DNA of 64,000 nt from positions 186,001 through 250,000 of the forward strand of contig JAPLKI010000010.1 in the NCBI GenBank assembly GCA_026388155.1, written 5' to 3'. The position numbers and the translations under genes are program-made. Each line of letters starts with the position of its first letter. Position 1 is the first letter of the stretch. The DNA is from Elusimicrobiota bacterium (lineage in GTDB: Bacteria > Elusimicrobiota > Elusimicrobia > Elusimicrobiales > UBA9959). Positions 1,471 through 58,600 of the stretch are shown here, piece after piece. Below the pieces are notes generated by a model that did not search any database, had not been told where the DNA came from, and was given only the letters and a program-made list of their open reading frames with translations.

Positions 1471-2301
1471 ATGAAATATTTAAAGAGCGTTATCCCGGCG
1501 GTTTTAATCACTTTCCTGGCTTTCGGCTGCCAGAATAAGCCCGCCCAGCAGAACATCGTGCGACTGGCCACCACTACAAGTGTCCAGGACACCGGCCTGT
1601 TGGATGTGCTGACGGACGCTTTCCAGAAGGATGGTAAGTACACACTTCAGTCTATAGCCGTGGGTTCGGGCCAGGCTATGCAGCTTGGCAAAACCGGCGA
1701 AGCCGACATACTGTGGGTGCACAGCCCTGACGACGAGGCGCAGTTCGTGGCGGAAGGGTACGGCACCGGCCGCACCACGTTCATGCATAACGATTTTGTA
1801 ATACTGGGCCCCGCCGCGGACCCCGCCAGGGTTAAAGGCGCTAAGAAAGCCGCCGACGCCTTTAAAAAAATCGCCGCGGCCAAAGCGCTGTTCGTTTCCC
1901 GCGCCGACAATTCCGGCACTAATAAAAAAGAACTCAAACTATGGGATGAAGCCAAGGTAAAGCCGGCCAAAGAGGCTTATGTGGAAGCCGGTCAGGGTAT
2001 GGCGGCCACATTATCCATGGCCAACGAGAAAAAAGCCTATGTTCTGGCGGACCGCTCCACGTATCTCTCGATGAAGAATAATATCGGCCTTGTAATACTC
2101 AGCGAAGGCGACGACGCCCTTATAAACCGCTACAGCCTGATACTTGTTAATACCGCAAAGTTCCCCAAGGTCAACGCCGGGGGCGCCAAGGCGTTCTTTG
2201 ATTTTGTGCTTTCAAAACCGGCCAGGGAAATGATAGAGAAGTACGGCCAGGATAAATACGGCCAGCAGCTGTTCTTCTACGATTACAAAATTCAGGGGTA
2301 A
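1471..2301 (+). CDS. tupA: Tungstate ABC transporter, substrate-binding lipoprotein
   Basis: 276 residues. Captures tungstate outside the inner membrane and hands it to the permease. The signal peptide ends in a lipobox (LAFGC), so the mature protein should be a lipoprotein anchored at Cys20. After it comes LATTTSVQDTGLLDVL, the TTTS oxyanion-binding signature of the TupA/WtpA-like family, followed by ADILWVHSPDDEAQFVAEGYG and, in the second lobe, SRADNSGTNKKELKLW. These are family-typical. TupA proteins bind tungstate far more tightly than molybdate, which fits the tungsten oxidoreductase downstream, although sequence alone cannot exclude molybdate. First gene of tupA-tupB-tupC; a hairpin repeat begins on its stop codon. 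Confidence 0.9.
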   Translation: MKYLKSVIPAVLITFLAFGCQNKPAQQNIVRLATTTSVQDTGLLDVLTDAFQKDGKYTLQSIAVGSGQAMQLGKTGEADILWVHSPDDEAQFVAEGYGTGRTTFMHNDFVILGPAADPARVKGAKKAADAFKKIAAAKALFVSRADNSGTNKKELKLWDEAKVKPAKEAYVEAGQGMAATLSMANEKKAYVLADRSTYLSMKNNIGLVILSEGDDALINRYSLILVNTAKFPKVNAGGAKAFFDFVLSKPAREMIEKYGQDKYGQQLFFYDYKIQG

Positions 2302-2370
2302 GCGTATAGAGGTCAGAGGACAGGGATAGAGTTCCCCGGCCAGCTATACGCTTTCCGCTATACGCTGGTT
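2301..2370 (+). repeat. Heptad-arm hairpin repeat between tupA and tupB
   Basis: The left arm starts on the tupA stop codon with AGCGTATAG. The right arm carries CTATACGCT twice (2344-2352 and 2358-2366) and is followed by GGTTTTT. The arms pair, and the centre holds GAGTTCCCC. The shape is that of a terminator or attenuator, so it could lower tupBC expression relative to the binding protein. No Shine-Dalgarno site separates it from tupB. Confidence 0.6.
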
Positions 2371-2376
2371 TTTAAT

Positions 2377-3081
2377 ATGGGCTTCATTGCTGACGGCTTC
2401 CAGAAAGCCCTGCACCTGATATTTTCCGGCAACGCGGAGATACTCGCCATCGCCAGGCTGTCGCTGTCCGTTTCGGCGCTGGCCACTGTCCTCTCCGTAT
2501 TGATAGGGGTTCCCCTCGGAAGTATAATCGCGCTGAAAAAATTCCCGTTTAAAAAAATAGTTATTTCCCTGGTGAACACCGGCATGGGTTTCCCGCCGGT
2601 GGTGGTGGGCCTGTTCGTCATGCTTTTCCTTTCCAGGAACGGCCCCCTGGGTTTTCTGGACTGGCTGTATACGCCACTGGGGATGATACTCGCGCAGGTG
2701 ATCATCGCCACCCCGGTCGTGGCCGGCTTGTCCATGTCGGCAATGCAGAGCCTTGACCCGAAGTTTTACCTGCAAATCATGACTTTGGGGGCAAGCGAAC
2801 GGCAGGCGGTAATGGTGTGTCTTAAAGAAATAAGGCTTTCAATTCTTGCCGCTGTTATTGCTGGATTCGGCAGTATTATATCGGAAGTCGGAGCGGTAAT
2901 GATAGTTGGCGGGAATATCCGGCATCAGACGCGTGTATTGACAACGGCAACGGTGCTTGAAACCCAGATGGGAAATTACGACAGCGCTATAGCTTTAGGA
3001 TTGATCCTGCTGCTGCTGACGTTCCTGATAAACCTGGCGCTTACTTTTATCCAGCAGCAGAAGGTGCAACCCCGATGCTGA
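2377..3081 (+). CDS. tupB: Tungstate ABC transporter permease
   Basis: 234 residues with five or so hydrophobic segments. It forms the inner-membrane channel of the tungstate importer. The cytoplasmic loop ATLGASERQAV-like stretch (LGASERQAVMVCLKEIRLSILAA, broken here by family variation) carries the EAA-type contact with the ATPase, and the MGFPPVVVGLFVMLFLSRNG region is typical of TupB permeases. The ATG at 2377 has no visible Shine-Dalgarno site; MGFIADGF is a normal family start, so I keep it. The 3' end overlaps tupC by seven bases, implying translational coupling. Confidence 0.88.
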   Translation: MGFIADGFQKALHLIFSGNAEILAIARLSLSVSALATVLSVLIGVPLGSIIALKKFPFKKIVISLVNTGMGFPPVVVGLFVMLFLSRNGPLGFLDWLYTPLGMILAQVIIATPVVAGLSMSAMQSLDPKFYLQIMTLGASERQAVMVCLKEIRLSILAAVIAGFGSIISEVGAVMIVGGNIRHQTRVLTTATVLETQMGNYDSAIALGLILLLLTFLINLALTFIQQQKVQPRC

Positions 3082-4133
3082 AACTTAAAGATTTGAATTT
3101 TTGCGTCGCTCCCGGGTTTAACCTTTCAATAGACAATCTTGAGGTCGGAGAGGGCGAAATTTTAGCCGTCATCGGGCCCAACGGCGCGGGAAAGACTTCA
3201 TTGCTGAATGTTTTAGCTTTGTTCCGGAAAGCCGGCGCGGGAAGCCTGGAAATGTTCGGCAAAAACGCTTATAACCCCGCCGATAAGATGTTTTTACGGC
3301 GCTCGATGTCATTCGTGTTTTCCCAGCCGTATCTTTTAAACGATACGGTATACGACAATGTCGCCTTGCCGCTGAAGTTAAGGGGGGGCCGCGACGACGC
3401 CCGGGTTTCCGGTATGCTGGAGCTTTTTAAAATAGCCGGCTTAAAAGACCGCAACGCTAATTTGCTTTCGCAGGGAGAGAAACATCGCGTGGCGCTCGCG
3501 CGGGCGTTCGTAACGCGGCCGAGACTTATTTTGCTGGATGAGCCTTTTTTAAGCCTGGACGCGCGCGTTAAAGAATCCATAATGCGCGATCTGCGCCATA
3601 TTATCAAGGCATCCGGCGCAGCCGTGATATTTGTCACGCAGGATCAGACTGAAGCGCTGGCTCTTTGCGATTCCATGGCGGTAATGATGAACGGCCGGAT
3701 AGTGCAGCGGGGCAGTCCGCAGGAGGTGTTTGCCAGGCCCGCGTCAAAAGAGGCGGCTGATTTTGTGGGAGTGGAGACGATCCTTGAAGGGAAGATAGTC
3801 AAAAAAAGCGAAAACCTTTGCTCTATTAAAGTAAACGGCCAATCCCTTGAAGTGGTATCCGAATATAACGAGGGCGACAGCGTATTCGTGTGCGTGCGGC
3901 CGGAAGACGTGTCGGTGTCAAAAAGCGCGGATGTGAACAGTATGCGCAATCATTTTAAGGCTAAAATAACTTTCATGGAACCCTGGCGGCTGGAATATAA
4001 ATTAAGCCTTGATTGCGGTTTTAGTTTAATTGCCGCCGTGACCAAACAGTCGGTGGAAGGACTGGGTTTCAAAATGGGCGCGGAGGTCTTCGCTTCGTTC
4101 AAGGCCACAGCCGCGCATTTGATAAAGAGGTGA
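3075..4133 (+). CDS. tupC: Tungstate ABC transporter ATP-binding protein
   Basis: 352 residues. It hydrolyses ATP at the cytoplasmic face to drive tungstate import. The ATPase domain (about 1-235) has Walker A GPNGAGKTS, an ABC signature written LLSQGEKHRVALARA (LSQGE rather than LSGGQ), Walker B LILLDEPF and a following D-loop SLDAR. The C-terminal 110 residues resemble a TOBE/MOP-like regulatory domain, as in molybdate-type ATPases, and could sense the oxyanion. It overlaps tupB by seven bases and is followed six bases later by moeA, so import and cofactor genes form one operon. Confidence 0.88.
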   Translation: MLKLKDLNFCVAPGFNLSIDNLEVGEGEILAVIGPNGAGKTSLLNVLALFRKAGAGSLEMFGKNAYNPADKMFLRRSMSFVFSQPYLLNDTVYDNVALPLKLRGGRDDARVSGMLELFKIAGLKDRNANLLSQGEKHRVALARAFVTRPRLILLDEPFLSLDARVKESIMRDLRHIIKASGAAVIFVTQDQTEALALCDSMAVMMNGRIVQRGSPQEVFARPASKEAADFVGVETILEGKIVKKSENLCSIKVNGQSLEVVSEYNEGDSVFVCVRPEDVSVSKSADVNSMRNHFKAKITFMEPWRLEYKLSLDCGFSLIAAVTKQSVEGLGFKMGAEVFASFKATAAHLIKR

Positions 4134-7820: not shown

Positions 7821-7848
7821 GAAGTTAGGAGTTTGGAGTTGTGAGTTA
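7821..7848 (+). repeat. Single-arm heptad repeat after mogA
   Basis: Four consecutive seven-base words: GAAGTTA, GGAGTTT, GGAGTTG, TGAGTTA. No pairing arm is seen downstream. Same architecture as the two-armed elements elsewhere in the window. Confidence 0.55.
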
Positions 7849-9713: not shown

Positions 9714-9793
9714 AAGGGCAGGCTGAGGGCTGAAGGAAAATTGAAAACTATTTGACATACTGTTTCTCTTTTTTACCTTCAGTCTGATAGTTC
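9712..9793 (+). repeat. Degenerate heptad-arm repeat after aor
   Basis: The left side holds GGGCAGGCTGAGGGCTGAAGG and the right side ACCTTCAGTCTGATAGTT, which pair imperfectly. It is weaker than the other copies. Confidence 0.35.
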
Positions 9794-12312: not shown

Positions 12313-12380
12313 GAATTCTTCAGTTGGCCGTCTGGTGGCCATAGGCCCTGATACGGCACCTACACAAGTATTGAAGAATC
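12313..12380 (+). repeat. Structured repeat, copy B (GGCC-ATA-GGCC unit)
   Basis: Outer stem ATTCTTCA/TGAAGAAT, inner stem GCCGT/ACGGC around GGCC-ATA-GGCC, then an ACCT-ACAC-AAGT hairpin. Nearly identical inside to copy C at 12496-12564, but the outer stem differs on both sides and still pairs. The drawn fold is a three-way junction. Confidence 0.65.
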
Positions 12381-12490
12381 CCCGTTCCCAGCGCTCGCGG
12401 ATCGCTGCGCGACGGATACACCCTTGAGAATTTCCGCGCATAGCGCTGGAAATTCTAAACCCGCTACTGCGGGGAATCCTGCATTTTTTT
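12376..12490 (+). repeat. Nested hairpins between copies B and C
   Basis: GAATCCCCG (12376-12384) pairs with CGGGGAATC (12470-12478), enclosing a perfect GAATTTCC/GGAAATTC hairpin (12428-12455) whose loop contains GCATAGC. The outer stem is followed by TGCATTTTTTT, as in a terminator read rightward, although no rightward gene feeds it. Confidence 0.5.
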
Positions 12491-12495
12491 ATCAT

Positions 12496-12564
12496 CCGAT
12501 TTCCCAATGGCCGTCTGTTGGCCATAGGCCTTGAAACGGCACCTATGCAGGTATTGAAAATCGG
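12496..12564 (+). repeat. Structured repeat, copy C (GGCC-ATA-GGCC unit)
   Basis: The core matches copy B (TGGCCGTCTGTTGGCCATAGG, then TTGAAACGGCACCTATGCAGG). The outer stem here is CCGATTT/AAATCGG in place of ATTCTTCA/TGAAGAAT. The last hairpin is ACCT-ATGC-AGGT. Confidence 0.65.
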
Positions 12565-12587
12565 GTTTAATTGCCGGATTCGGGTTA

Positions 12588-12869: not shown

Positions 12870-12883
12870 GTAAACTCCTTGCT

Positions 12884-12965
12884 AGTGTAGAGTAGATAGT
12901 GGATAGTGTAGAGAAGAATTAAAAACTCCGTAAAATCTCTACACTCTACACTCGTTACTATCTAC
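12884..12965 (-). repeat. Heptad-arm hairpin repeat between ppnP and thiF
   Basis: The left arm has AGTGTAGAGTAGATAGT and the right arm CTCTACACTCTACACT and ACTATCTACT, which pair around ACTCC. The right arm encodes the last two residues and stop of thiF. Confidence 0.6.
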
Positions 12966-13581
12966 TTCCCTTCAATTTTACTAATAGTTCAACCGCTAAA
13001 TTGGCCTGCATATTGGCGACTATCGCCACGCGCGGCGCCATGGGGCTTATTCCCGCCAGGCACTGGGACTCGCCGTCGCCGCAGACATAGAGGCTGCCCA
13101 TCTTACGGGTGCGGAGTCTGGCGTTTTTGCCGTAACCCGCAAGGCCCGAAGCCGCTATTACGGGCTTTTTGGGGTAAAGCGACAGCCATGTATTTATCAG
13201 CATGCCCTTTTGTCCGGCCTTGTCAAAAGCTTCTATCAAAATGTCCGCCCCGCCGAAGATACTGCCGGTGTTGGCGCGGGTCACCTTCACGTCGTGGATG
13301 ATATATGACGCAAACGGGTTTATTTTTTTAAGGCTCGCGCGCAGGGCTTCAACCTTGCGCAGGCCGATCTGTTCGACGAAATACTGCTGCCTGTTAAGGT
13401 TAGAGGTTTCTATTTTGTCGAAATCGGCTATGATGAGCTTTCCTACTCCCGCCCGGGCCAGGGAAACCGCAACATTGGAGCCCAGTCCGCCGGCTCCCGC
13501 GATGCCAACCGTGCTGCGCTGAAGGGCCGTGAGAACTTGCGGATCGTGTCTGGAGAACAGGTCTTTAAAAAGGTCTGCCAT
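12958..13581 (-). CDS. thiF: Short ThiF-type sulfur-carrier adenylyltransferase
   Basis: 207 residues, matching the short ThiF family 2 rather than MoeB with a rhodanese tail. Adenylylates the C-terminal Gly of a ThiS/MoaD-like carrier. GIAGAGGLGSNVAVSLARAGVG is the nucleotide-binding loop, followed by DFDKIETSNLNRQQYF, the E1-family Asp/Arg motif. The paired zinc Cys of larger E1s are largely absent (only two Cys near the C-terminus, VCGDGESQC). No thiamine genes are near. The candidate carrier in the window is the 75-residue protein at 9.8 kb, but the two are not in one operon. Confidence 0.8.
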   Translation of the reverse strand: MADLFKDLFSRHDPQVLTALQRSTVGIAGAGGLGSNVAVSLARAGVGKLIIADFDKIETSNLNRQQYFVEQIGLRKVEALRASLKKINPFASYIIHDVKVTRANTGSIFGGADILIEAFDKAGQKGMLINTWLSLYPKKPVIAASGLAGYGKNARLRTRKMGSLYVCGDGESQCLAGISPMAPRVAIVANMQANLAVELLVKLKGSR

Positions 13582-15156: not shown

Positions 15157-15312
15157 GATACAGTGATGGGAGAACGATTAGGAGGAAGAGATCGCAGCGA
15201 TAGGGAGAGATTGCTTACGGCAGATAACAATTATCACGATAATAATCGCTGTTACAGGGATGATTCTTCAACTGCAATCACTGCAATCTCTCTTTAATCG
15301 CTGTAATCCGGG
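15157..15312 (-). repeat. Heptad-like inverted repeat upstream of the M32 gene
   Basis: The left side holds GATCGCAGCGATAGGGAGAG and the right side CACTGCAATCTCTC and TTAATCGCTGTAATCC. The two sides are imperfectly complementary, with an AATTATCACGATAATAAT palindromic centre. The words share the family GATTACAGCGAT with the copy at 28.9 kb. Confidence 0.5.
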
Positions 15313-15526: not shown

Positions 15527-15610
15527 TAGCGTATAGGGGCTAGGGTGCAGGGACTGCATTTTACAAATGGTTTGGTTTTTTAATCGCTAACCCCTATTCG
15601 CTATTCGCTG
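15527..15610 (-). repeat. Heptad-arm hairpin repeat next to tRNA-Arg
   Basis: The left arm has AGCGTATAGGGGCTAGGG and the right arm AACCCCTATTCGCTATTCGC, which pair. The centre is T-rich (TTGGTTTTTTAA). Same word family as the copies at 2.3, 23.7, 25.3 and 33.0 kb. Confidence 0.6.
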
Positions 15611-15619: not shown

Positions 15620-15691
15620 TGCGCCCACCTGGAATCGAACCAGGACAACCAGCTTCGCAGGCTGGGACTCTATCCGTTGAGATATGGGCGC
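15620..15691 (-). tRNA. tRNA-Arg (anticodon GCG)
   Basis: A 72-base cloverleaf folds on the minus strand: acceptor GCGCCCA/TGGGCGC with discriminator A, D arm with the GGATA loop that gives A20, anticodon stem CCAGC/GCTGG with loop CTGCGAA, and T arm CCTGG-TTCGATT-CCAGG. CCA is not encoded. C35 and A20 are Arg identity bases. GCG reads CGC and CGU; most bacteria use ACG (deaminated to ICG) for this box. Confidence 0.93.
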
Positions 15692-21038: not shown

Positions 21039-21757
21039 ACGAACTTGATATCCATATCGAGGTTTTTGAAGGCCCGTTGGATTTGCTGATGCATCTTATA
21101 CGAAAGAACAATCTGGATATCTACGATATTCCCATTTCCCAGATAACCAAAGAGTATCTGTCCTACCTGGAAGTGATAAAGACGCTGAATCTGGAGGTGG
21201 CCGGGGAATTTCTGGTAATGGCCACGACCCTCATGCAGATAAAGGCCAAAATGCTCTTGCCCGCCAGGGAAATGCCCGGAGAGGAAGGCACAGGCCCCGA
21301 CCCGAGAGGAGCCCTGGTTTCCATGCTTGAGGAATACCAGCGTTACAAGGAAGCCTCAAAGGATATGTCGCAGCGTTTCGCGCGCTACAAGGATGTTTTC
21401 TACCGCGGTTCCCCCGTGTTTACAAGTGAGGAAAAATTTCTGGAACTGGATTTTTACTCGCTTATCGACGCCGTAAAGCGCGCCTTTGAGAGGGTTGAGG
21501 GCTCGGAAGAAGTTGAGGCGGACCGTTTCCCGATAGAATCGCGCGTGGAAAAAGTGCTGAATATGCTTGAGGGCCGCGAGTGGCTGCTGCTGGATGATAT
21601 TTTTGCCGGCGAAACGCATAAACTCGGCGTAATTACCTGTTTTATAGCCATGCTTGAGCTGATAAAACAGCGTAAAATAATCGTTTCCCAGGATGACGTT
21701 TGCGGCGAAGTGCGGGTTTACCCGGCGCCTGAGCCGGTGGCAGAAAAAATGCCATAA
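21035..21757 (+). CDS. scpA: Chromosome segregation and condensation protein ScpA
   Basis: 240 residues. The kleisin that bridges SMC heads. HIEVFEGPLDLLMHLIRKNNLDIYDIPISQIT is the signature N-terminus. The C-terminal winged helix (KLGVITCFIAMLELIKQRKI) contacts the SMC cap. The left arm of the following hairpin repeat begins over its last codons (GCCATAAGC). Confidence 0.94.
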   Translation: MNELDIHIEVFEGPLDLLMHLIRKNNLDIYDIPISQITKEYLSYLEVIKTLNLEVAGEFLVMATTLMQIKAKMLLPAREMPGEEGTGPDPRGALVSMLEEYQRYKEASKDMSQRFARYKDVFYRGSPVFTSEEKFLELDFYSLIDAVKRAFERVEGSEEVEADRFPIESRVEKVLNMLEGREWLLLDDIFAGETHKLGVITCFIAMLELIKQRKIIVSQDDVCGEVRVYPAPEPVAEKMP

Positions 21758-21836
21758 GCTTTAGGCCATCTGCCATAGGCGTATTTAAGGAATTCCTTGA
21801 AGCATATGGCATACGGCTTATGGCTTATAGCAGATA
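21752..21836 (+). repeat. Heptad-arm hairpin repeat between scpA and scpB
   Basis: Arms GCCATAAGC ... GGCCATCTGCCATAGGC and GCATATGGCATACGGCTTAT pair around a TTAAGGAATTCCTTGA palindrome. Same GCCATAA/GCCGTAA words as at 41.7 and 58.6 kb. Confidence 0.6.
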
Positions 21837-21874: not shown

Positions 21875-22618
21875 ATGGAAGACACTGAACTGAAAAAAGC
21901 GCTTGAAACTTTGCTTTTTATCGCGGACCATCCCCTGCCTGTTGAAAGTCTGGCACAGCTTTGTGAGGTAAAAAATCAGGAGCGCGTTAAAGCGCTGTTG
22001 GATGAGCTGAAGGCGGTTTACGACGGTGAGGAAAGGGCGCTGCAGGTTATGCAGGTGGCCGGCGGCTGGCAGATGTCCACCAGACCCGCCTACAGCCTGT
22101 GGGTGAGAAAACTCTACCACAATAAAATGACCGTTCGCCTTACGCAGGCGGCGGTGGAAACGCTTTGTATCATAGCTTACAAGCAGCCGCTCACCCGCGC
22201 GGAAATAGAGGCCATAAGGGGTGTTGAAGTAATAGGCCCGCTGGACACTCTTACCGAGCGCAGGCTGATTACCGTGGTCGGCAGGAGGGAGACCACGGGC
22301 CGCCCCATACTTTACGGCACCACCACCGAATTCCTGCGGCAGTTCGGGCTTAATACGCTTTCCGATTTGCCGAAACTTGAAAATTTCACCGTTGAAAATC
22401 CGGCGGCCTCTGCCCAGGCCACGGCGGTGGAACTGGTGGAAGAAGAATCCGCCGCGGCTCTTGAAGCGGCTCAGTCCGCCAAAGAAACCGCCGACGGCCT
22501 GAGCGCCGGAGAAGAAAATCAAGCCGTTAAGCCGGAAGCCGCTGCCGCTCCGGAGCCTGTTGAAGCGGTACAGAACACTGAAAACACCGCAGAAAAGGAT
22601 AAAGGGAGTAACCAGTAA
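21875..22618 (+). CDS. scpB: Chromosome segregation and condensation protein ScpB
   Basis: 247 residues. Partner of ScpA in the SMC condensin. Two winged-helix domains: LKKALETLLFIADHPL to MSTRPAYSLWV, and LTQAAVETLCIIAYKQPLTRAEIEAIRGV. The last 65 residues are low-complexity Ala/Glu (TAVELVEEESAAALEA), a disordered tail. The final codons (GSNQ and stop) are themselves part of a heptad repeat, so the C-terminus may have been altered by repeat insertion. Confidence 0.93.
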   Translation: MEDTELKKALETLLFIADHPLPVESLAQLCEVKNQERVKALLDELKAVYDGEERALQVMQVAGGWQMSTRPAYSLWVRKLYHNKMTVRLTQAAVETLCIIAYKQPLTRAEIEAIRGVEVIGPLDTLTERRLITVVGRRETTGRPILYGTTTEFLRQFGLNTLSDLPKLENFTVENPAASAQATAVELVEEESAAALEAAQSAKETADGLSAGEENQAVKPEAAAAPEPVEAVQNTENTAEKDKGSNQ

Positions 22619-22662
22619 CCAGTGACCGGTAACCGGTTACTGATTACCGAGTTGTTACCGCC
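22606..22662 (+). repeat. Heptad-arm hairpin repeat between scpB and galT
   Basis: GTAACCAGTAACCAGTGACC pairs with GGTTACTGATTACC and GTTGTTACC. It overlaps the end of scpB. Confidence 0.6.
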
Positions 22663-22672: not shown

Positions 22673-23662
22673 ATGCCTGAAATAAGAAAAGACCCGGTTT
22701 TCGGCCGTTGGGTGATAATAGCTTCAGAGCGCGGATTGAGGCCTAATGAGTTCCTGACCGCTTCCGAAGCCGGCGACTACAAATGCCCTTTCTGCCCGGG
22801 CAATGAGCGTCTTACCCCTCCGGCGGTCTATTCGCTCCCTTCTACGGGCGGCGACTGGCGGTTGAGGGTGGTGCCTAACAAGTATCCGGCCCTGGTTTCC
22901 GGCGGTGTGGGAGGGGAGCAGCCGGACGGAATTTATTATCGCATGGACGGCATCGGCTCTCATGAGGTGCTTATAGAAAATACGCGCCATGGCCTGCGCC
23001 TTGAGGAAATGGAGGTTGAGGCCATAGCCGATGTCCTCAGGGCCTTTATCCTGAGAACGCGCGAAATAAAAAAAGACCCCGGTGTGAAGTATGTGATGAT
23101 CTTTAAAAACCACGGCAGGAACGCCGGAGCCAGCCTCGCGCATCCGCATTCGCAGATAATAGTTCTGCCCATGGTTCCCATAAGGCTGGTGGAAGAAATA
23201 GACGGAGCTAAAAATTATCTTGAAAAAAAAGGCGCCTGCGTGTTCTGTGATATTATAAAAGAGGAAACCCGCGTTAAGAACAGGGTGTTGGATGAAAACG
23301 AGCATTTCCTGGCCATAGAGCCGTACGCCAGCAGGTTTTCTTTTGAAACCTGGCTGCTGCCAAAAAAACACCTGAGCCATTTCGAAGCTATGCCGGATGC
23401 GCTTGTTTTGGACCTAGCCGCTATTTTAAAAGGCACCCTGGGCAAGCTTTACGCAACGCTTCCTGATTTTTCCTATAACCTGGTAGTTCATTCCATGCCG
23501 GTCCAGGAGCCGCAGGCGGCTCACTATCACTGGCATATTGAGATAATGCCCAAATTAAGCCAGGTGGCGGGCTTTGAATGGGGCACCGGTTTCTACATAA
23601 ACACGGTTTCCCCGGAAGACGCGGCCGACATGCTGAATACAGGGAAGAAGTTTAAAATTTAG
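22673..23662 (+). CDS. galT: Galactose-1-phosphate uridylyltransferase
   Basis: 329 residues. Exchanges UMP between UDP-glucose and galactose-1-phosphate. MPEIRKDPVFGRWVII start, zinc Cys CPFCPGNE, the active site GASLAHPHSQI (second His is the nucleophile) and HYHWHIEIMP. A GTG start at 22622 would read through the hairpin repeat and is rejected. It lies by the glycogen genes. ADP-glucose-type uridylyltransferase relatives exist, so the nucleotide is not certain. Confidence 0.9.
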   Translation: MPEIRKDPVFGRWVIIASERGLRPNEFLTASEAGDYKCPFCPGNERLTPPAVYSLPSTGGDWRLRVVPNKYPALVSGGVGGEQPDGIYYRMDGIGSHEVLIENTRHGLRLEEMEVEAIADVLRAFILRTREIKKDPGVKYVMIFKNHGRNAGASLAHPHSQIIVLPMVPIRLVEEIDGAKNYLEKKGACVFCDIIKEETRVKNRVLDENEHFLAIEPYASRFSFETWLLPKKHLSHFEAMPDALVLDLAAILKGTLGKLYATLPDFSYNLVVHSMPVQEPQAAHYHWHIEIMPKLSQVAGFEWGTGFYINTVSPEDAADMLNTGKKFKI

Positions 23663-23775
23663 CGAGTAGCGGATAGCAAATAGTAAATAAGGAGTGATGT
23701 TAAGCGGATTTGAAATGGAATTTATTTAAGGAACTCCCTCCGCTATTCGCCATTCGCTATACGCTAATCGCTGTC
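23663..23775 (+). repeat. Heptad-arm hairpin repeat between galT and glgA
   Basis: The left arm has AGCGAGTAGCGGATAGC, the right arm CCGCTATTCGCCATTCGCTA and ACGCTAATCGCT. The centre includes AAGGAACTCCC. Confidence 0.65.
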
Positions 23776-25246: not shown

Positions 25247-25251
25247 GGGCA

Positions 25252-25286
25252 GCAAATAGCGATTAGCGAATAGCGAGCAGGGGATG
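25252..25286 (+). repeat. Single-arm heptad repeat after glgA
   Basis: AGCAAAT, AGCGATT, AGCGAAT, AGCGAGC in tandem, no paired arm. Same word family as the copy at 23.7 kb. Confidence 0.6.
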
Positions 25287-28872: not shown

Positions 28873-28879
28873 TAACAGT

Positions 28880-28992
28880 GCAGAGATTACGGCGATGGGT
28901 AAGAGATGACGGCGGTAGTTTAAAGAATATTAGATTAACGAATTGTTAGTTCATCGTTGTAATCGTGTTGTTTTATCGCTGTAATCTCTTTT
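28880..28992 (+). repeat. Heptad-like inverted repeat before glgE
   Basis: CAGAGATTACGGCGATGGG and ATCGTTGTAATCG, TTATCGCTGTAATCTC on the far side pair. Same words as the copy at 15.2 kb. Confidence 0.5.
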
Positions 28993-31045: not shown

Positions 31046-31145
31046 TGCCCGGCTGGAATAGGCTGTGGATTAGTGTGGAGCCAGGCAAACATCCTCTATT
31101 CTTTGCGTTCTTTATCGCTACACTAGCTTCAGCCTGCAGCCTAAA
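31046..31145 (+). repeat. Weak heptad-arm repeat after glgE
   Basis: GGCTGTGGATTAGTGTGGAG on the left and CGCTACACTAGCTTCAGCC on the right are partly complementary. Degenerate copy. Confidence 0.35.
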
Positions 31146-31167
31146 CAACCCGGGTGGTTGCTGAAAG

Positions 31168-31698
31168 ATGTATTTTCAAGCATGGGGAAAAATGTCCGAA
31201 GATTTAGAGCTAACTAAAAAAAAGTTTGTAAACAGATTGGCGTTGTCCGCTGTGATACTCGGCGGAGCGTTAAATCTTATCCCGAAAATTATTTTCTTCT
31301 GGCAGCCCGATAATGGATTTAAGCTTGATCTAAAAAATTTCGCGTGCATATTGTTCTGGTGGTTTTATTTGTCAATACCATTCATCATGTTGGCGGTCGT
31401 TGTAAAATTTGTTTTGCGCCGCTCAAACATGGGGCAGCGTGCGTTTTTTATGCGGATGTCGGGGATCGCCGGCGCGTTCGCTTTTATGCAGGCGTTTTAT
31501 TTTATTTATGACAAGTATTTTTGTTCGGGGCGGGGAGCGGACATAATACTTTACGCCTTATATGCTTTTTCGCCTCTTTTGAATATACTGGTATTGCCGT
31601 TCGGTTATTTTATTGGATTTTTTTCGGCCTACATTTTTTGCATATTTTACGGGAAAAAGCAGCTTTCGGAAGGCTTAAGGCTTAGGGCTGAAGACTGA
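31168..31698 (+). CDS. Membrane protein of unknown function
   Basis: 176 residues with four hydrophobic segments and charged loops (VVVKFVLRRSNMGQRAF). The first 20 residues are polar. ATG 31192 after GGGGAAAA is an alternative start. I do not recognise the family. Likely inner membrane. It sits between repeats, alone. Confidence 0.6.
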   Translation: MYFQAWGKMSEDLELTKKKFVNRLALSAVILGGALNLIPKIIFFWQPDNGFKLDLKNFACILFWWFYLSIPFIMLAVVVKFVLRRSNMGQRAFFMRMSGIAGAFAFMQAFYFIYDKYFCSGRGADIILYALYAFSPLLNILVLPFGYFIGFFSAYIFCIFYGKKQLSEGLRLRAED

Positions 31699-31745
31699 AG
31701 TCGGGAAAATTCCCCCGTAAGCCTTCAGCTATAAACAGGACCTAA
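31676..31745 (+). repeat. Heptad-arm hairpin repeat
   Basis: GGCTTAGGGCTGAAGACTGAAG and TAAGCCTTCAGC flank a CGGGAAAATTCCCCCG hairpin; the left side overlaps the end of the preceding gene. Confidence 0.5.
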
Positions 31746-32962: not shown

Positions 32963-33045
32963 AGCGTATAGGGGCTAGCGTATAGAGGTTAGGGAAGGAG
33001 TTCCTTGCCACCCCTAGTACCCTCACCCCTAGCCCCTGACCCCTA
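32962..33045 (+). repeat. Heptad-arm hairpin repeat before the nucleotide-transporter-like gene
   Basis: AGCGTATAGGGGCTAGCG with GAGGTTAGGG, and CACCCCTAGCCCCTGACCCC, pair around AAGGAGTTCCTT. Confidence 0.65.
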
Positions 33046-33047
33046 CT

Positions 33048-34292
33048 ATGTCAACACTTCTTGCGGCTTTAAAAACTGAACGAGGGCGGCATGTGGCCGC
33101 GGCGGCGGGACTCGCCGGCCTTTCGGCCTCCTTCCTTTTCTGCGGCTATGAGTTTATACGTTCGCCTATAGAATCCATATTCATAGATAACTTCGGCGCG
33201 GCGGCAAAACCTTACGCCCTGAGTTGCGTGCCGGTGATGATGGGCCTGCTCATTTACCTCTACGGCAGGGCGTTGTCGGCTTTTGGCGCCGCACGGTCCA
33301 TGGCCGGGTCCATGCTTTTGTCAGGCGCGATGTTTGCCGCCGCCTATTTTTCTCTGGATTGGCTTGGCAAGCCGATGGTGTTTTTTTTGTTTATTTTCAA
33401 GGAATCCTATGTGGTAATAATTTCAGAGCAGTACTGGTCTTTCATCAACAGCGTAGTCAGGGATGAAGAAGGCAAGGTGTTTAACGGGCCGGTGGCGGGC
33501 TTGGGCGCTCTTGGCTCTTTGATAGGCGGTTTTCTGCTGGGTCATTACGCTGTGCGTCTGCACACGGAGTCTTTTATACTGCTGTCCGCTATATGCTTCC
33601 TGCCGGCTATGGCACTGATGTGGAAGGCTTACGGTCGGATCGCCGAGCCTAAGCCGGCGGCGGCTGAGGAAGGCGGTAAAAAGGGGCACCTCCATCTAAG
33701 CATACTCAGGGAGAACCGCACCATTCTTTTTATAGCTTTGATTATTTTCGCCACGCAGGTTGTGGCCACCGCCCTGGATCTGCGGTTCTCGCTGCTGGTG
33801 CAGGACGCTCTGCCGGATAAGGATTTGCGCACGGCATTCCTTGGCGGTTTCTGGATGAAGGTGAACATCTTTTCTTTTTCAATGCAGTTCCTGCTTGCGC
33901 CGCTTTTATTGCGCTACCTGTCGGTGCGCCGCATACAGACCGCCATTCCGGTAGTTCATGTGGCTACCTGCGTTCTGCTGCTTATCTACCCCAGCCTGTG
34001 GCTTGGCTCGGCGGCGTTTCTGCTGTTTAAAGGCATGGATTATTCTATTTTCCGCGCCTCAAAAGAAACCCTCTATATACCTTTCTCCTACGATACGCGT
34101 TACCGCGCCAAGCAGGTGGCCGATGCCTTCACATACAGGTTTTCAAAGGGTCTTACTTCCGTGGTGCTTTCAGTTATTAAATCTTTCAGCGCCATACCGG
34201 TTGCGGCCTACGCCGCTATGGGACTTGCGTTTTCAGCCGCCTGGCTGGGCCTCGCATTTCCGCTTACAGCCAAAAGAGCGACAAAAGTCTAA
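33048..34292 (+). CDS. ATP/ADP-translocase-like (Npt/TLC) or MFS membrane transporter
   Basis: 414 residues with about twelve hydrophobic segments. The stretch SKETLYIPFSYDTRYRAKQV, followed by DAFTYRFSKG, resembles the TLC nucleotide transporter block (KE-LYIPLS and KAK-D--G-R--K). SEQYWSFINSVVRDEEGKVF, then GLGALGSLIGGFLLG, match its earlier block. TLC carriers are best known in intracellular bacteria and plastids, but divergent members occur in free-living bacteria. The substrate may be nucleotides or something else. Start codon inside the repeat tail, no clear Shine-Dalgarno site. Confidence 0.6.
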   Translation: MSTLLAALKTERGRHVAAAAGLAGLSASFLFCGYEFIRSPIESIFIDNFGAAAKPYALSCVPVMMGLLIYLYGRALSAFGAARSMAGSMLLSGAMFAAAYFSLDWLGKPMVFFLFIFKESYVVIISEQYWSFINSVVRDEEGKVFNGPVAGLGALGSLIGGFLLGHYAVRLHTESFILLSAICFLPAMALMWKAYGRIAEPKPAAAEEGGKKGHLHLSILRENRTILFIALIIFATQVVATALDLRFSLLVQDALPDKDLRTAFLGGFWMKVNIFSFSMQFLLAPLLLRYLSVRRIQTAIPVVHVATCVLLLIYPSLWLGSAAFLLFKGMDYSIFRASKETLYIPFSYDTRYRAKQVADAFTYRFSKGLTSVVLSVIKSFSAIPVAAYAAMGLAFSAAWLGLAFPLTAKRATKV

Positions 34293-34372
34293 GCGTCTGG
34301 GAGTCTGAGAGTCAGGAAGCTCTACTTTTTGACTCCTAGACTCTATGACTCTCGACTCTTAGACTTTTCCTG
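34293..34372 (+). repeat. Heptad-arm hairpin repeat between convergent genes
   Basis: GTCTGGGAGTCTGAGAGTCAGG pairs with ACTCCTAGACTCTATGACTC and CGACTCTTAGAC. Repeating word GACTCTA. Lies between the transporter and PorV, which converge; probably the terminator for both. Confidence 0.6.
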
Positions 34373-35376: not shown

Positions 35377-35403
35377 AATAACTTCACTCCCGCTGTCCCA
35401 TTA

Positions 35404-35438
35404 TCGCTACCCTGTCCCCTGACCCCTATTCTCTGCTT
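35404..35438 (-). repeat. Single-arm heptad repeat between PorV and the FN3 gene
   Basis: CGCTACCCTGTCCCCTGACCCC with CTATTCTCTGC. No paired arm. Confidence 0.45.
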
Positions 35439-40545: not shown

Positions 40546-41664
40546 ATGGCTGACTATAACATACTGGTGATAAACCCCGGCTCCACCTCCGACGAGGTGA
40601 GTTTTTTCCGCGGCGAAAAACTGGTTTTTCATAAGGTAGTCCGGTACAACCCGGAGGACCTGAAAGCCTACGAATTTAAAAAAGTAACCGCCCAATATAA
40701 ATTCAGGAAAGGCTTGGTGCTTGACACCCTGAAAGAGCACAAGGTGGAGCTATCGGAGCTGCATGCCATTATAGGCCGCGGCGGGGTACTCCGGTCCATA
40801 GAGGGCGGGGTTTACGCGGTTAACGAAAACATGCTTAAAGACCTTAACGAAGGCGTAATGGGAGACCACCCTTCAAATCTGGGGGGAATACTCGCCTACA
40901 ACATAGCCGCCATGTGCGGCGCCGCGGCGTTTATAGCCGACCCGGTGACGGTTGACGAGATGGAGCCTTTGGCCAGGTATTCGGGCATGCCGGAGAACCC
41001 GAGGATTTCAATTTTTCACGCGCTTAACCAGAAAAGGGTGGCCCGCCACGCGGCCCGCCAGCTTGGCAAACCATACGAAGACTGCCGCCTGATCGTAATG
41101 CACGGCGGCGGCGGCGTTTCGGTAGGGGCGCACATAGGCGGCAGGGTGGTGGATGTAAATAACGGGCTTGAGGGCGACGGGCCCTTCACGCCGCAGCGCT
41201 CCGGCAGCGTGCCGGCTGCCGGGCTGATAAAAATGTGTTTCTCGGGCAAATACACTTTGGCCGAAATGAAGCTCAAGCTGAAAGGCCGCGGCGGCCTTGT
41301 GGCTTACACCGGCACCTCCGACTGCATAGCCCTTGAAAAATATATCCTGACCGGCGAGATAAAGCCTAATTCCGGCCTTGACCCGGCAAAAATTTCGCGC
41401 GAAAAGGCCAAAGAGGCGGTGCTTGCCATGGCCTATCAGATTTCAAAAGAGATAGCCTCCCTGTCGGCGGTGCTTGAAGGCAAGGTGGACGCTATAGTAC
41501 TTACAGGCGGGCTCGCCTACGACCAGATAGTGGTACCTGAAATCAAACGCCGTGTGGACTGGATAGCCCCGGTGCTAAGCTACCCCGGCGGCGATGAAAT
41601 GCGCGCCTTGCGCGTGGCGGCGCAAACCGGCCTTAAGCATCCCGCCAAGGTAAAGGTGTACTAA
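40546..41664 (+). CDS. buk: Butyrate kinase
   Basis: 372 residues. Forms ATP and butyrate (or branched acid) from the acyl phosphate. YNILVINPGSTSDEVSFF, HALNQKRVARHAA, MHGGGGVSVGAHIGGRVVDVNNGLEGDGPFTP and LTGGLAYD are family blocks. ASKHA fold. The start is the ATG after CGAGAGG; longer frames overlap the previous gene. Paired with ptb downstream, a standard acyl-CoA to acid route. Confidence 0.93.
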   Translation: MADYNILVINPGSTSDEVSFFRGEKLVFHKVVRYNPEDLKAYEFKKVTAQYKFRKGLVLDTLKEHKVELSELHAIIGRGGVLRSIEGGVYAVNENMLKDLNEGVMGDHPSNLGGILAYNIAAMCGAAAFIADPVTVDEMEPLARYSGMPENPRISIFHALNQKRVARHAARQLGKPYEDCRLIVMHGGGGVSVGAHIGGRVVDVNNGLEGDGPFTPQRSGSVPAAGLIKMCFSGKYTLAEMKLKLKGRGGLVAYTGTSDCIALEKYILTGEIKPNSGLDPAKISREKAKEAVLAMAYQISKEIASLSAVLEGKVDAIVLTGGLAYDQIVVPEIKRRVDWIAPVLSYPGGDEMRALRVAAQTGLKHPAKVKVY

Positions 41665-41665
41665 C

Positions 41666-41700
41666 TGCCGTATGCCATAAGCCGTAAGCCATAGGCAGAA
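41666..41700 (+). repeat. Single-arm heptad repeat between buk and ptb
   Basis: GCCGTAT, GCCATAA, GCCGTAA, GCCATAG. No paired arm. Confidence 0.6.
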
Positions 41701-42654: not shown

Positions 42655-42781
42655 ACGGAGGCGAGCGAATAGGGAAGGATTGATTTATTTTTGCAGCTCT
42701 ACACTAGTTAAAGTCGGAAGCTTTGATTAGTCTGCCGGAACTTCAGCGCTTCAGAGCTTATAGCTCTTCAGCTCTAGCTTA
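42655..42781 (+). repeat. Heptad-type arms before the SEC-C gene
   Basis: CAGCGCTTCAGAGC and TATAGCTCTTCAGCTC with GAACTTCAG on the left form a weak, mostly single-arm array; related words occur at 47.4 kb. Confidence 0.45.
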
Positions 42782-42792
42782 AGGAGACACTT

Positions 42793-45319: not shown

Positions 45320-45328
45320 TGTCGTTAC

Positions 45329-45477
45329 GGCTCAGGTAGACAGAATCCAGAAGTCAAGCCTATGGCAGTGCCGTAAAAAGAGCTATGCTCCTCAAACGGC
45401 CAGGATTCAGAACGGTGGAATCTGCTCAATTGCTGGTGCTCCCATTCTGACTACTGAATTCTGACTTCTGGCTACCC
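45329..45477 (-). repeat. Heptad-arm hairpin repeat between thrC and the kinase-like gene
   Basis: GTAGACAGAATCCAGAAGTC on one side, CCATTCTGACTACTGAATTC and TGACTTCTGG on the other; the read-back words are CAGAAGT, CAGAATT, CAGTAGT, CAGAATG. The arm ends beside the stop of the kinase-like gene. Confidence 0.6.
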
Positions 45478-46090: not shown

Positions 46091-47347
46091 ATGAACACGG
46101 ATATTGAAAAGATGCTCCGGATTTCACCCAAAAGATTCAAGGAAATTAACACTTTCCTGGTTGACCCTAAAAACGAAGCGGTCCGCGCTGTTGTAAAACT
46201 TATCGAAAAACACGGCGGCGCCGCCGCGATAAACAGGAAAGCGGCCGAAGCAGGGAAGCCTGAGAACCTGCTGGCGCGCCTTAAAAAGGAAAATTCGCCG
46301 TATTATAACGAAGTTCTCTGGCTCAGGGAACAGCGCGACAAGGGCGCGTTTATCGGCATGAAAGATTATTGCCGCAAACACGCGGGCAGGTGCAAGATCA
46401 ACAGCAAGAATGCGGTCGCGCTGGAAATCAGCGCCCTGCAGTATTTTCCTTTTCTCATACAGTCCGCCAAGCAGGCCATTGCCAGGCAGGAACTGATGCC
46501 GGGCCGCTTTATCCGCGTGCGAAACATGAAAGAACAGGTGGCGGACCTGGGCGATATCCTCGCGGTTTCCGCCTCAATGAATATAATAGGCGCGTCCCTT
46601 GTTGAGACGCTGGATACGAAGGGCACGGACGGTTCTAACATACACCTGGGGGGGGCTGCGACTATCACCGGCTATTTCGGAGGCGTGGGCCAGCCCAATG
46701 AGCATGCCATGCAGTGGGCCGAGGAGTATCTGCACTACTACACTAACTACGGCATCCGCCAGGCGCTCAATGTCAATTCCGGTACGATAATGATCGCCTA
46801 CCTTATGCACAGGCTTGGAGTGAATAACGAATTCAAGATCTCCGTGTTCATGGGCAACGACAACCCCTACTCTATAATGTGGACGCTGCTTGCGGCGAAA
46901 CTCTTCGCGCGCGAAGACGGGACAACTTCGCTGATCGGTTTCAACCTGGCTAACTCGGTGAATAACGAAACGATTATACAAGCCTCGAAAATACGCAAAG
47001 CGCTGGGCCTCGAAAAAGTTGTCCGCTTTGAGCACCACATCACGGAGACGTTCAAGTCCATCGTGGTTCAGCCGTACAACCGCAGACAGGAATTGATCCA
47101 GCTCGCCGCGAAGGTCCCCAATATCGCGGCCAAACATGAAGGCGGAGACCCGCAAATTGACGGCAAGCGCGCGCATCCTTCGGACATCCTCGATTACTTC
47201 ATGCCCAAGAAAGATGTGGAAGCCCAGGGCCTGATGCCCGCTATGCTGAGGAATTACCTGGACAAACACGACGCCGTGAACCGGACCGCCGAAGCGCTAA
47301 CTAAAGCCGGCATCGGAGTGCTGGCCGCGCAGAATCTGCATAAATAG
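46091..47347 (+). CDS. Conserved-looking protein of unknown function, TIM-barrel-like
   Basis: 418 residues, no signal or membrane segment. An N-terminal helical third (PKNEAVRAVVKLIEKHGG), then a Gly/Asn-rich core: GTDGSNIHLGGAATITGYFG, QALNVNSGTIMIAYLM, ISVFMGNDNPYSIMWTLLA, SLIGFNLANSVNNETI, VRFEHHITE, and a tail KHEGGDPQIDGKRAHPSD. The repeated beta-loop-helix units with polar ends look like a barrel enzyme. I do not recognise the family. AGGAGG lies upstream. panB follows 100 bases on in line. Confidence 0.75.
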   Translation: MNTDIEKMLRISPKRFKEINTFLVDPKNEAVRAVVKLIEKHGGAAAINRKAAEAGKPENLLARLKKENSPYYNEVLWLREQRDKGAFIGMKDYCRKHAGRCKINSKNAVALEISALQYFPFLIQSAKQAIARQELMPGRFIRVRNMKEQVADLGDILAVSASMNIIGASLVETLDTKGTDGSNIHLGGAATITGYFGGVGQPNEHAMQWAEEYLHYYTNYGIRQALNVNSGTIMIAYLMHRLGVNNEFKISVFMGNDNPYSIMWTLLAAKLFAREDGTTSLIGFNLANSVNNETIIQASKIRKALGLEKVVRFEHHITETFKSIVVQPYNRRQELIQLAAKVPNIAAKHEGGDPQIDGKRAHPSDILDYFMPKKDVEAQGLMPAMLRNYLDKHDAVNRTAEALTKAGIGVLAAQNLHK

Positions 47348-47431
47348 AGCTGAAGAGCTGGAAGCTCTGAAGAGCTGAAGTAAAGGAAAAGTATACTTCA
47401 GCTCTTCAGCACTTCAGGCTTCAGCGCTTCC
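47346..47431 (+). repeat. Heptad-arm hairpin repeat before panB
   Basis: AGAGCTGAAGAGCTGGAAGC and CTGAAGAGCTGAAG face ACTTCAGCTCTTCAGC and ACTTCAGG; complementary arms with an eight- to nine-base period here. Confidence 0.6.
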
Positions 47432-56086: not shown

Positions 56087-56103
56087 GCCGTCGGCTCAAA
56101 GCT
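56079..56103 (+). terminator. Hairpin overlapping the tdh stop codon
   Basis: AGCTTTGAGCC-GTC-GGCTCAAAGCT, perfect 11 bp, contains the TGA. No T run follows, so it may only attenuate or protect mRNA ends. Confidence 0.5.
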
Positions 56104-56119
56104 GTCGCGAGACTGAATA

Positions 56120-57889: not shown

Positions 57890-57891
57890 AA

Positions 57892-58548
57892 ATGAGGCGG
57901 TCAGGTAAAACTCTTTTAGCGGGCGTTTTTTTATTTTCCTTTAAAATTTTACTTCATGGCCAAAATGAGAATGTGGTCTCGACCGCCGCTGTAAAGGCTC
58001 CATCCGCCCGGCCTGATGAAAGCCCGCTTATGCTTAATATATCAAAGGACGCCCGCGATTCAAGGGTGGCGCTGGATTATTCCCTGAGGTGGGATTTTTC
58101 CGATTTGCGCGGTTTCAGGCCCGGCGTAAAAACTCTGTATTACCTCTTTAAGAGCGCTTCTTCCTGGGACATAACGGAAAATACCAGGCTTAAATATTAC
58201 GGCTTTAAAACCAATCCCTGGCGGGTGTTTATCGCCAAAGAACGGTTGGAGCAGTCCGCTCCAGCCGGGGCTTTGGGGGCCGGCGCCGGCGGACCGCCGG
58301 CTGAGTACAAAAAACGCCTGCGGCTTTCCCTTTCGCCGCTGGTGGATGATTTTGAACGGGATCTTGACGAAAATTTACGGGACGCTCTGCTTAACGCTTC
58401 ATTTAAAGGCGCGTCGCCGCAATGGTCCAAAATAAGCGAAAAAGATAAAAAAGTGTTTTTCAGGGATGTATTGTCGCTTGGAGTCTGGGATACGCCCCTG
58501 CCCCTGATCAACGAAGGCAAAGAAAGCCTTGAGTATATCAGTAAATAA
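57892..58548 (+). CDS. Secreted protein of unknown function
   Basis: 218 residues with a signal peptide (TLLAGVFLFSFKILLHG). A beta-rich start (VALDYSLRWDFSDLRGFRPG, YLFKSASSWDITENTRL) and a Gly/Ala-rich linker (GALGAGAGGPP), then a helical end with many Asp/Lys. No family recognised. Coupled to the lipoprotein gene before it, so probably part of the same envelope complex. Confidence 0.55.
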   Translation: MRRSGKTLLAGVFLFSFKILLHGQNENVVSTAAVKAPSARPDESPLMLNISKDARDSRVALDYSLRWDFSDLRGFRPGVKTLYYLFKSASSWDITENTRLKYYGFKTNPWRVFIAKERLEQSAPAGALGAGAGGPPAEYKKRLRLSLSPLVDDFERDLDENLRDALLNASFKGASPQWSKISEKDKKVFFRDVLSLGVWDTPLPLINEGKESLEYISK

Positions 58549-58555
58549 GCCGCAT

Positions 58556-58600
58556 GCTGCCCGCGCCATAAGCCGCAAGCCATCGGCTATAAGGAATTCC
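58556..58600 (+). repeat. Heptad-arm repeat between the secreted and membrane genes
   Basis: GCCATAAGCCGCAAGCCATC with GGCTATAAGGAATTCC. Same words as at 21.8 and 41.7 kb. Confidence 0.5.

Follow-up and report, generated by a model that had tools for sequence, protein, structure and literature searches.

The intergenic gaps of a 64,000-nucleotide stretch of an Elusimicrobiota genome (the window, C10:186001-250000 of genome G000; 3.36 Mb in 25 contigs) carry elements built from inverted arrays of tandem seven-base words (heptads). These heptad elements sit downstream of genes, mostly between co-directional genes. Their words form families that are dispersed over many gaps and change genome-wide between species of one genus, and they obey a strong polarity, AG-words pointing inward from both gap edges. 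The most likely reading, which we hold with a little less than even confidence, is that of dispersing DNA resembling repetitive extragenic palindromes (REPs) or miniature inverted-repeat transposable elements (MITEs), combined with local turnover.

Sampled DNA comprised 1.25 Mb of G000 (37% of the genome) and, from the same genus, 0.38 Mb of G001 and 0.76 Mb of G002 (2.4 Mb in total). Median reciprocal-best-hit identity to G000 was 86% (n = 74) and 84% (n = 279), respectively. A further Elusimicrobia record (L202, UBA9634) is collinear with six genes of G000, with protein identities of 80-87% in four and 62-70% in two, which marks the organism as Elusimicrobiota-like rather than cyanobacterial. 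Genes were called with a custom hexamer gene finder, on which all gap counts depend. Arrays were scored by a simple lag-match score, whose threshold varied between tests and on which array counts depend.

A seven-base period in intergenic gaps

A preliminary description of the window had named 21 gaps with runs of heptads. When a score of at least 8.5 was required within 150 nt of a gene end, at a lag of 7, 8 or 9, 15 of the 21 carried arrays, and the gap at 31.7 kb provided a sixteenth, its array overlapping a gene end (score 14.8). The others were less secure: those at 2.3, 9.7 and 31.1 kb were weak, and those at 28.9 and 58.6 kb failed the lag detector. The units were mostly heptads, as described, but not at 34.3, 42.7 and 47.4 kb, where period 8 scored best, or at 15.2 kb, where period 9 did.

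Eleven lag-7 segments were found in the window, against a mean of 0.15 (maximum 2) in 20 Markov shuffles; at the same threshold, other lags from 4 to 16 gave 0-2 segments, save lag 14 with 6. Across 289 co-directional gaps of 45-150 nt in G000, lag-7 identity was 0.360, whereas lags other than multiples of 7 gave 0.24-0.27; lag-7 identity was 0.313 in convergent gaps (54 gaps) and 0.258 in divergent ones (17 gaps). Lag-7 segments numbered 214 in 114.7 kb of co-directional gaps of this genome, against 32 in 1,078 kb of coding DNA.

Period-7/8 arrays were present in 163 of 365 co-directional gaps of 45-200 nt in G000, 52 of 124 in G001 and 162 of 288 in G002. After Markov shuffling these numbers fell to 6.0, 1.8 and 4.6, and after letter shuffling to 1.4 of 365 in G000. 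Control lags 6/9 gave 5, 1 and 4 gaps, respectively, and lags 5/10 gave 14 in G002. Period 8 was the minority, with 27 lag-8 against 190 lag-7 segments in G000 and 63 against 139 in G002. The preliminary description had proposed permutation of the gaps as a check; both the heptad period and the arm complementarity reported below survived such shuffling controls.

At C13:96096 and C16:103874 of G000, arrays enter the 3′ end of a called coding sequence, and by eye the C-terminus differs from that of the sister species. A compound satellite was seen in G002 (C42:175400-176016), where an ACAAGTC-type array is followed by four ACTTGTG arrays with starts 38-45 bp apart.

Arm pairing

The right arm of an element had been described as the rough reverse complement of the left, and this was confirmed: left-right complementarity of at least 12 was found in 33.1% of 266 gaps, against 3.6% for arms drawn from different gaps. 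Among neighbouring arrays (n = 116), 62 were inverted with the same word (at most one letter off), against 9.1 expected; 11 were direct, 15 had unrelated words and the remainder were intermediate. One-armed copies, also reported before, were present, and some of them may have a partner that escaped detection. The centre motif AAGGANNTCCTT (at most one mismatch) occurred 51 times in co-directional gaps, against 3.05 in shuffled sequence.

Heptad order was not mirrored between arms. In-phase match was 5.85 of 7 against 5.80 after permutation (122 elements), and 5.41 against 5.47 in G000; a weak signal was present in the summed z, at 1.95 over the 122 elements and 2.14 for 63 from other phyla. 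Complementarity anchored on the centre did not peak at register zero. On these two grounds, pairing of the arms in exact register was rejected, and the arms match word-wise, not base by base.

Arm mismatches showed no bias to G-U over A-C, with 289 G-T against 265 A-C in 258 heptad gaps (166 and 164 in an earlier set). As controls, 87 terminator-like hairpins gave 22 G-T against 9 A-C (p 0.03; contrast with heptads p 0.04), and 15 tRNAs gave 3 and 0. The power of this test is modest, because 141 other hairpin gaps with neither heptads nor a T-run were also unbiased (106 G-T against 120 A-C). Since no wobble bias is left, exact RNA stems under strong selection are not supported; the earlier view of the elements as selected hairpins finds no support in the balanced mismatches and the unmirrored order. 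A T-run at the stem end, as in intrinsic terminators, was found in only 10 of the 258 heptad gaps. Rfam gathering scores likewise gave no structured RNA in the window other than a reverse-strand tRNA gene at 15620-15691, the sole match.

A role in stopping translation in all three frames was rejected: 5′ arrays contain stop triplets in 70% of cases and the antisense of 3′ arrays does so in 71%, and being equally common in antisense they are not a coding-strand effect. At C25:41554 and C25:188406 of G000, heptad arms enclose terminator-like hairpins, as if grown around an existing palindrome.

Word families and their turnover

Words differ between gaps, as first described, but they are not private to one gap and are shared by many gaps as families. 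Fifteen families, defined by hand, cover most arrays; 10 of about 200 G000 gap entries fell outside them, and GGTTCAC elements mostly escape the lag detector. The elements were rightly set apart from a sequence-conserved REP family.

Word pools differed between congeners. GCCATAA was found in 37 gaps of G000, none of G001 and 17 of G002; the corresponding numbers were 0, 0 and 14 for AGTGGCT, 3, 15 and 10 for AGGGTAT, and 8, 7 and 22 for ACAAGTC. Over the 15 hand-defined families, the difference between G000 and G002 was highly significant (chi-square p 8e-9).

Dispersed copies were detected by comparing 406 gaps all against all, from which the best 40 of 3,412 pairs are considered. The top-scoring pair among them, window 28875-28990 and C10:165 kb, shares 116 bp at 90.5%. 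Also among these best 40 were GCCATAA members, 69-91% identical over 77-159 bp with the centre included, and a GGTTCAC pair with 81% over 108 bp. In G000, arms of different family members match almost as well as arms of the same element (5.06 against 5.21 of 7, p 0.11). A conserved small hairpin, GCGGCTGGAACAGCCGC, adjoins several GCCATAA arrays (e.g., C10:174614 and C18:111655).

Word swaps, gain and loss at orthologous gaps

In 49 orthologous gaps with arrays in both G000 and G002, the words differed by at least two letters in 34 (by exactly two in 7 of these). The same word (at most one letter off) was present in the other 15 (31%), against 7.9% of non-orthologous gaps. Swaps within the window include GCCATAA for AGTGGCT in a sister species at 21757, AGCGGAT for AGAGTCT at 23662, GCCGTAA for AGAATTC at 41664 and AGAGCTGA for AGCGATT at 47347. 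The gap following an M29 peptidase gene (Pfam; window 32962) holds AGGGGCT, AGTGGTT, AGTCTAA, TTAAGAA-type and other words across family members, and no array in some; the G000 and G001 arms at this gap flank a conserved centre but differ in their individual heptads. At C25:20839, three related genomes have three words: AGGCTGA in G000, GGTTCAC in G002 and AGAAGTC in L202.

Filled and empty gaps were compared in 32 gap pairs measuring less than 30 nt in one species and 50-260 nt in the other, and 16 of the 32 long gaps held an array. In the short-gap pair at window 21038, which involves an ATGA gene overlap, TTATGA stands at both sides; target-site duplication was unclear at other gaps. Occupancy was shared between species with an odds ratio of 4.0 over 169 gap pairs, and of 1.4 (p 0.5) over the 108 pairs in which both gaps were at least 30 nt. 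Array gaps aligned less well between species than 14 array-free gaps.

Polarity of the arrays

AG-words lay in the left half of the gap and CT-words in the right half (rule to exceptions) at 168:29 and 138:19 in co-directional gaps, 10:0 and 7:0 in convergent gaps and 2:0 and 4:0 in divergent gaps, words with both or neither of AG and CT being omitted from these counts. AG was present in 85-88% of words, against 63-66% after shuffling, and TAG in 43-45%, against 20%. Hairpin formation alone does not demand polarity, because a pair folds in either order. Shine-Dalgarno avoidance was rejected as its cause: convergent gaps, which have no start codon, show the same polarity (17 decided arrays). 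The sole mechanism that we would defend is a polar copying or binding agent.

Distribution beyond the genus

A contig scan for the exact paired pattern TCAGAANTCAGAA...TTCTGANTTCTGA (AGAAGTC word) found at least 118 stretches, against a random expectation of about 0.06 (our own arithmetic, even base composition); the details that follow rest on 80 of these that were listed. Record titles of the matches listed name 14 phylum-level groups, several resting on one contig of a metagenome-assembled genome: Cyanobacteria, Acidobacteria, Proteobacteria, Planctomycetes, Nitrospinae, Firmicutes, Deltaproteobacteria, Chlamydiae, Elusimicrobia, WOR-3, Verrucomicrobia, Omnitrophota, Bacteroidetes (Saprospiraceae) and Actinomycetota. 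Isolates among them include those of Nostoc, Pelotomaculum and Desulfoscipio. By eye, spacers and flanks of the listed loci appear unrelated, save between near relatives (the Nostoc records). Eleven further inverted pairs, built of other words, were present in the 80 loci, and direct pairs were absent; AG without CT was found in the left word of 6 of these 11, both in 2 and neither in 3. Viral contigs gave 2 stretches with paired AGAAGTC, 0 in divergent order and 0 in a reversed-letter control, numbers too small for a conclusion.

Within the phylum, the 16-mer AGCGAATAGCGAATAG was present in 9 of 294 genomes. Five lag-7 arrays were found in 30 gaps of G010, and none in 23 gaps of G020 or 11 gaps of G013, both small samples. 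The phenomenon is therefore broad but patchy.

Candidate movers

Like REPs, the heptad elements are extragenic and lie downstream of genes. Sixteen of 19 genomes in the family to which G000 belongs, some members of which have arrays, contain the Y1_Tnp domain, as does 1 of 12 genomes of a sister family. Among 16 matches to Y1_Tnp or REP-associated tyrosine transposase (RAYT) in three genomes, 11 RAYT genes were examined, and no lag-7/8 array lay within 260 nt of any of them. Seven of the 11 were flanked instead by AAAAGG..CCTTTT palindromes of the family AAAAGGTACCAGGTACCTTTTT and variants (e.g., L122 and L127), which are probably the true REPs of this genus. The GTAG tag found at the foot of REP palindromes was present at 37 of 286 right ends and 23 of 240 left ends, against 55 of 292 inside arms; it exceeded shuffles at right ends (37 against 17.5) and inside arms, and ends were no richer in it than arm interiors. 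Neither RAYT mobilisation nor the GTAG tag was supported.

Some AGAAGTC, GGTTCAC and other members have an imperfect GTTACTnCTCAGGT-like outer end, a candidate for the terminal inverted repeat of a MITE. Inspection by eye of 11 AG-inward pairs, out of 34 far-spaced inverted array pairs in the three-genome sample, revealed ribosomal proteins, transporter permeases, enzymes or no genes between the arrays, and no transposase; no autonomous parent element was recognised among them.

Relation to known repeats

The short tandemly repeated repetitive sequences (STRRs) of cyanobacteria are heptanucleotide tandem repeats. The preliminary description knew of no precedent for the paired form, but paired heptads are in print for Xanthomonas (PMC4692102), Geobacter metallireducens (PMC2700814) and Nostoc trnL (PMC4476775). 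These papers and those cited below are represented here by extracts, and comparisons with them extend as far as those extracts do. Xanthomonas GGGAATC repeats form 70-75 convergent heptad pairs per genome; these are intergenic, their neighbours being for the most part co-directional or convergent genes, and are not conserved between sister species (Rehm et al. 2015, PMC4692102). The heptad elements resemble them as intergenic convergent pairs near gene ends, in their tandem 7-nt units (period 8/9 in a minority), in the closeness of the two convergent sites (the 62 of 116 neighbouring arrays, against 9.1 expected) and in a polarity rule, there for one word. Xanthomonas, however, has one word type, discussed as G-quadruplexes, whereas here there are about 15 words per genome, word-paired and swapped between congeners; AGGGGCT and AGGGTAT alone among the 15 families contain three or more consecutive G.

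The ‘global regulator’ sites of G. metallireducens are tandem heptads or octads, mostly in opposite-strand pairs, and were proposed to bind IHF/HU (PMC2700814). Their class 3 consensus, MTYCTGA, corresponds to the AGAAGTC word of the window; they form few classes, with no word swap described in the extract, whereas about 15 families with swaps are found here. In P6b of the Nostoc tRNA-Leu intron, two heptad motifs form equivalent paired arms and have repeatedly replaced one another (PMC4476775). That case concerns one RNA locus, within a group I intron, whereas the heptad elements occupy hundreds of gaps and give no RNA wobble signal.

TAACTGA direct repeats of Beggiatoaceae, cyanobacteria and Bacteroidetes (169 sets, one of them indirect) are likewise intergenic heptad arrays patchily common to distant lineages; unlike the gap elements, they have one word in direct arrays, mostly just upstream of start codons (PMC4679880). 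In cyanobacterial long simple sequence repeats, for which slippage was proposed, the seven-nucleotide unit is the most abundant (cited in PMC4679880); the arrays are direct there and inverted pairs here. REPs and bacterial interspersed mosaic elements (BIMEs) are dispersed palindromes downstream of genes, in co-directional or convergent gaps, with several families in some genomes (PMC3733652). They differ in their conserved sequence and GTAG/CGTC tag, and heptads go unmentioned in the extract; GTAG is not concentrated at ends here.

Searches of the open-access PMC literature, with subscription papers outside the scope, turned up no account of a genome with many families of word-matched pairs, of congeners whose word pools had turned over, or of a polarity rule that holds for different words and phyla. 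The many-word lexicon, the genome-wide word turnover and the cross-word polarity appear to be new. Nearly half of the sampled short co-directional gaps in this genome carry arrays. Any clade for which strain-level genomes exist would allow its word pools, its polarity rule and its orthologous swaps to be scored.

Dispersal and its rivals

Transfer between gaps is needed because word pools change genome-wide between congeners, and a local process at each gap is disfavoured because it would not synchronise words genome-wide. REP/MITE-like dispersal is favoured by this change of word pools, by the copies dispersed among gaps, by the occurrence of both filled and empty gaps and by the polarity. 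The elements would be DNA-level, dispersed, non-autonomous inverted repeats, with two convergent arrays of 7-nt (7-9) units around a short palindromic or variable centre, collecting downstream of genes where insertions would be tolerated. Whole elements or arms would be copied between gaps by an agent needing polarity but not a fixed sequence, and older copies would be lost or overwritten. The 7-nt step within arrays would come from replication slippage, and some arm-to-arm exchange may occur through inverted-repeat template switching. Most copies would be neutral or weakly tolerated rather than sequence-specific RNA devices. Possible, though doubtful, is a wider proposal in which the elements form a pan-bacterial, unrecognised class of dispersing DNA. 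Its identity would be its architecture (AG-inward convergent heptad arrays), read by the agent as fold and polarity, and the word would be free, so that word pools change. Should an agent indeed spread an architecture and not a sequence, searches for repeats by sequence will have overlooked it.

Several results weigh against dispersal. No copying agent was found, either beside the 11 RAYT genes or between the 11 far-spaced pairs. Near-identical copies are rare, the best-scoring pair reaching 90.5% and the highest identity among the best 40 of 3,412 pairs being 91.4%, and just a single case (TTATGA, window 21038) is suggestive of target-site duplication. In G002, arms match at 5.26 within an element and at 4.28 between family mates (p 1.5e-6), and the pooled values are 5.27 and 4.80 (p 9e-7); the difference, which the choice of elements biases upward, is a sign of some homogenisation at the local level. 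Orthologous gaps tend to have the centre motif in common (odds ratio 2.6-4, p 0.016-0.04), and some elements may persist while their arms change. The rarity of near-identical copies, the kept centres and the arm matching in G002 suggest rapid heptad turnover by slippage and template switching, two processes that we infer.

A rival explanation is purely local mutation, in which slippage makes the heptads, quasi-palindrome template switching equalises the arms and words drift in each gap with no movement. Extracts of two papers lend it a mechanism: the arms of imperfect inverted repeats are homogenised by template switching between them (PMC8604942), and in yeast quasi-palindrome mutations are linked to transcription (PMC3820800). 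Words mixed within one arm, the heptad-wise difference between the G000 and G001 arms around a kept centre at 32962, centres shared beyond expectation, the closer arm match within G002 elements and the weak mirrored-order signal all agree with it. We nevertheless consider it unlikely, since a word carried by dozens of gaps in one genome can be absent from the sample of its congener, similarity between gaps takes in the centre, and polarity and patchiness among relatives are left unexplained. Functional RNA hairpins at 3′ ends or between cistrons (stabilisers, processing sites or attenuators), with structure selected and sequence free, are decidedly unlikely given the balanced mismatches in heptad and non-heptad hairpin gaps alike, the lack of mirrored order and of a register-zero peak, and the poorer alignment of array gaps between species. 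Occupancy, moreover, is not conserved in the 108 pairs of adequate length, though it is over all 169. The placement downstream of mostly co-directional genes and the inverted arms would suit such hairpins, as would the arms surrounding terminator-like hairpins (C25:41554), the two motifs serving one stem in Nostoc trnL (PMC4476775, extract) and the modest power of the contrary wobble test.

Convergent clusters of binding sites for DNA-binding proteins, one protein per word, as proposed in G. metallireducens, would fit the convergent polarity, the matching of arms by word and not by order, and the excess of AG. They are improbable, however: about 15 word-specific proteins would have to turn over between congeners, words are mostly not conserved at orthologous genes, and arrays are rarer in divergent (promoter-bearing) than in co-directional gaps. 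Very improbable is movement by resident RAYT (Y1) transposases as an unusual REP family. The occurrence of Y1_Tnp in the two families, a distribution and polarity that recall REPs (PMC3733652, extract) and the GTAG excess at right ends speak for it, but RAYT genes have other palindromes beside them in place of arrays, GTAG is no commoner at element ends than inside arms, and G013, with two Y1_Tnp matches, has no arrays in its 11 gaps.

Elements of the window

Heptad elements in the window, with approximate ends
Element	Position	Strand	Evidence
Two arms, words AGCGTATAG/AGGTCAG, right arm CTATACG	2301..2366	+	Sequence; lag-7 score 8.2 (weak)
One-arm array AGTTAGG	7823..7847	+	Score 11.1
Degenerate two arms, AGGCTGA ... 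TTCAGTCT	9715..9790	+	Sequence; score 6.8 (weak)
Two arms, AGTGTAG / CTACACT	12881..12968	-	Sequence, lag detector, arm comparison
Two arms, period 9, ACTGCAATC	15165..15300	-	Sequence; best score at lag 9
Two arms, AGCGTAT/AGGGGCT ... CGCTATT	15529..15610	-	Sequence, lag detector
Two arms, GCCATAA, centre AAGGAATTCCTT; AGTGGCT-type in a sister species	21750..21836	+	Sequence, lag detector, orthologous gap
Left-arm array AGTAACC; sister species keeps word	22607..22650	+	Lag detector, orthologous gap
Two arms, AGCGGAT ... CGCTATT; AGAGTCT-type in a sister species	23660..23772	+	Lag detector, orthologous gap
One-arm array AGCGATT/AGCGAAT; AACAGGT-type in sister species	25251..25276	+	Lag detector, orthologous gap
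116-bp dispersed element GATTACRGCGAT; 90.5% identity to copy at C10:165 kb	28875..28990	+	Gap-vs-gap comparison; missed by lag detector
Degenerate two arms	31056..31147	+	Sequence; score 6.8 (weak)
Array AGGCTTA/AGGCTGA overlapping gene end, right arm CCTTCAGC	31670..31735	+	Score 14.8
Two arms, AGCGTAT/AGGGGCT, centre AAGGAGTTCCTT; several other words at same gap in family members	32963..33050	+	Sequence, orthologous gaps
Two arms, AGTCTGAG (period 7/8, best score at 8), between convergent genes	34290..34366	+	Sequence, lag detector, orthologous gap
AGGGGTC-type array	35387..35434	-	Sequence, lag detector
One-arm array GCCGTAA; AGAATTC-type in sister species	41664..41696	+	Lag detector, orthologous gap
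Right-arm array CTTCAGCG, period 8	42741..42782	+	Sequence, lag detector
Two arms, AGAAGTC/AGAATTC; one outer end resembles GTTACTnCTCAGGT	45324..45473	-	Lag detector, orthologous gap, end comparison
Two arms, AGAGCTGA, period 8; AGCGATT-type in sister species	47345..47430	+	Sequence, lag detector, orthologous gap
Degenerate GCCATAA arm, centre AAGGAATTCC	58566..58600	+	By eye; missed by lag detector

An 84-bp near-tandem duplication (79% matches) lies at 54056-54218, within the reverse-strand gene 53123-54793. Repeats like GAAACGGCACCTAYRCAGGTATTG occupy 12350-12570 and have a similar stretch in a G010 gap; they are perhaps another dispersed family.

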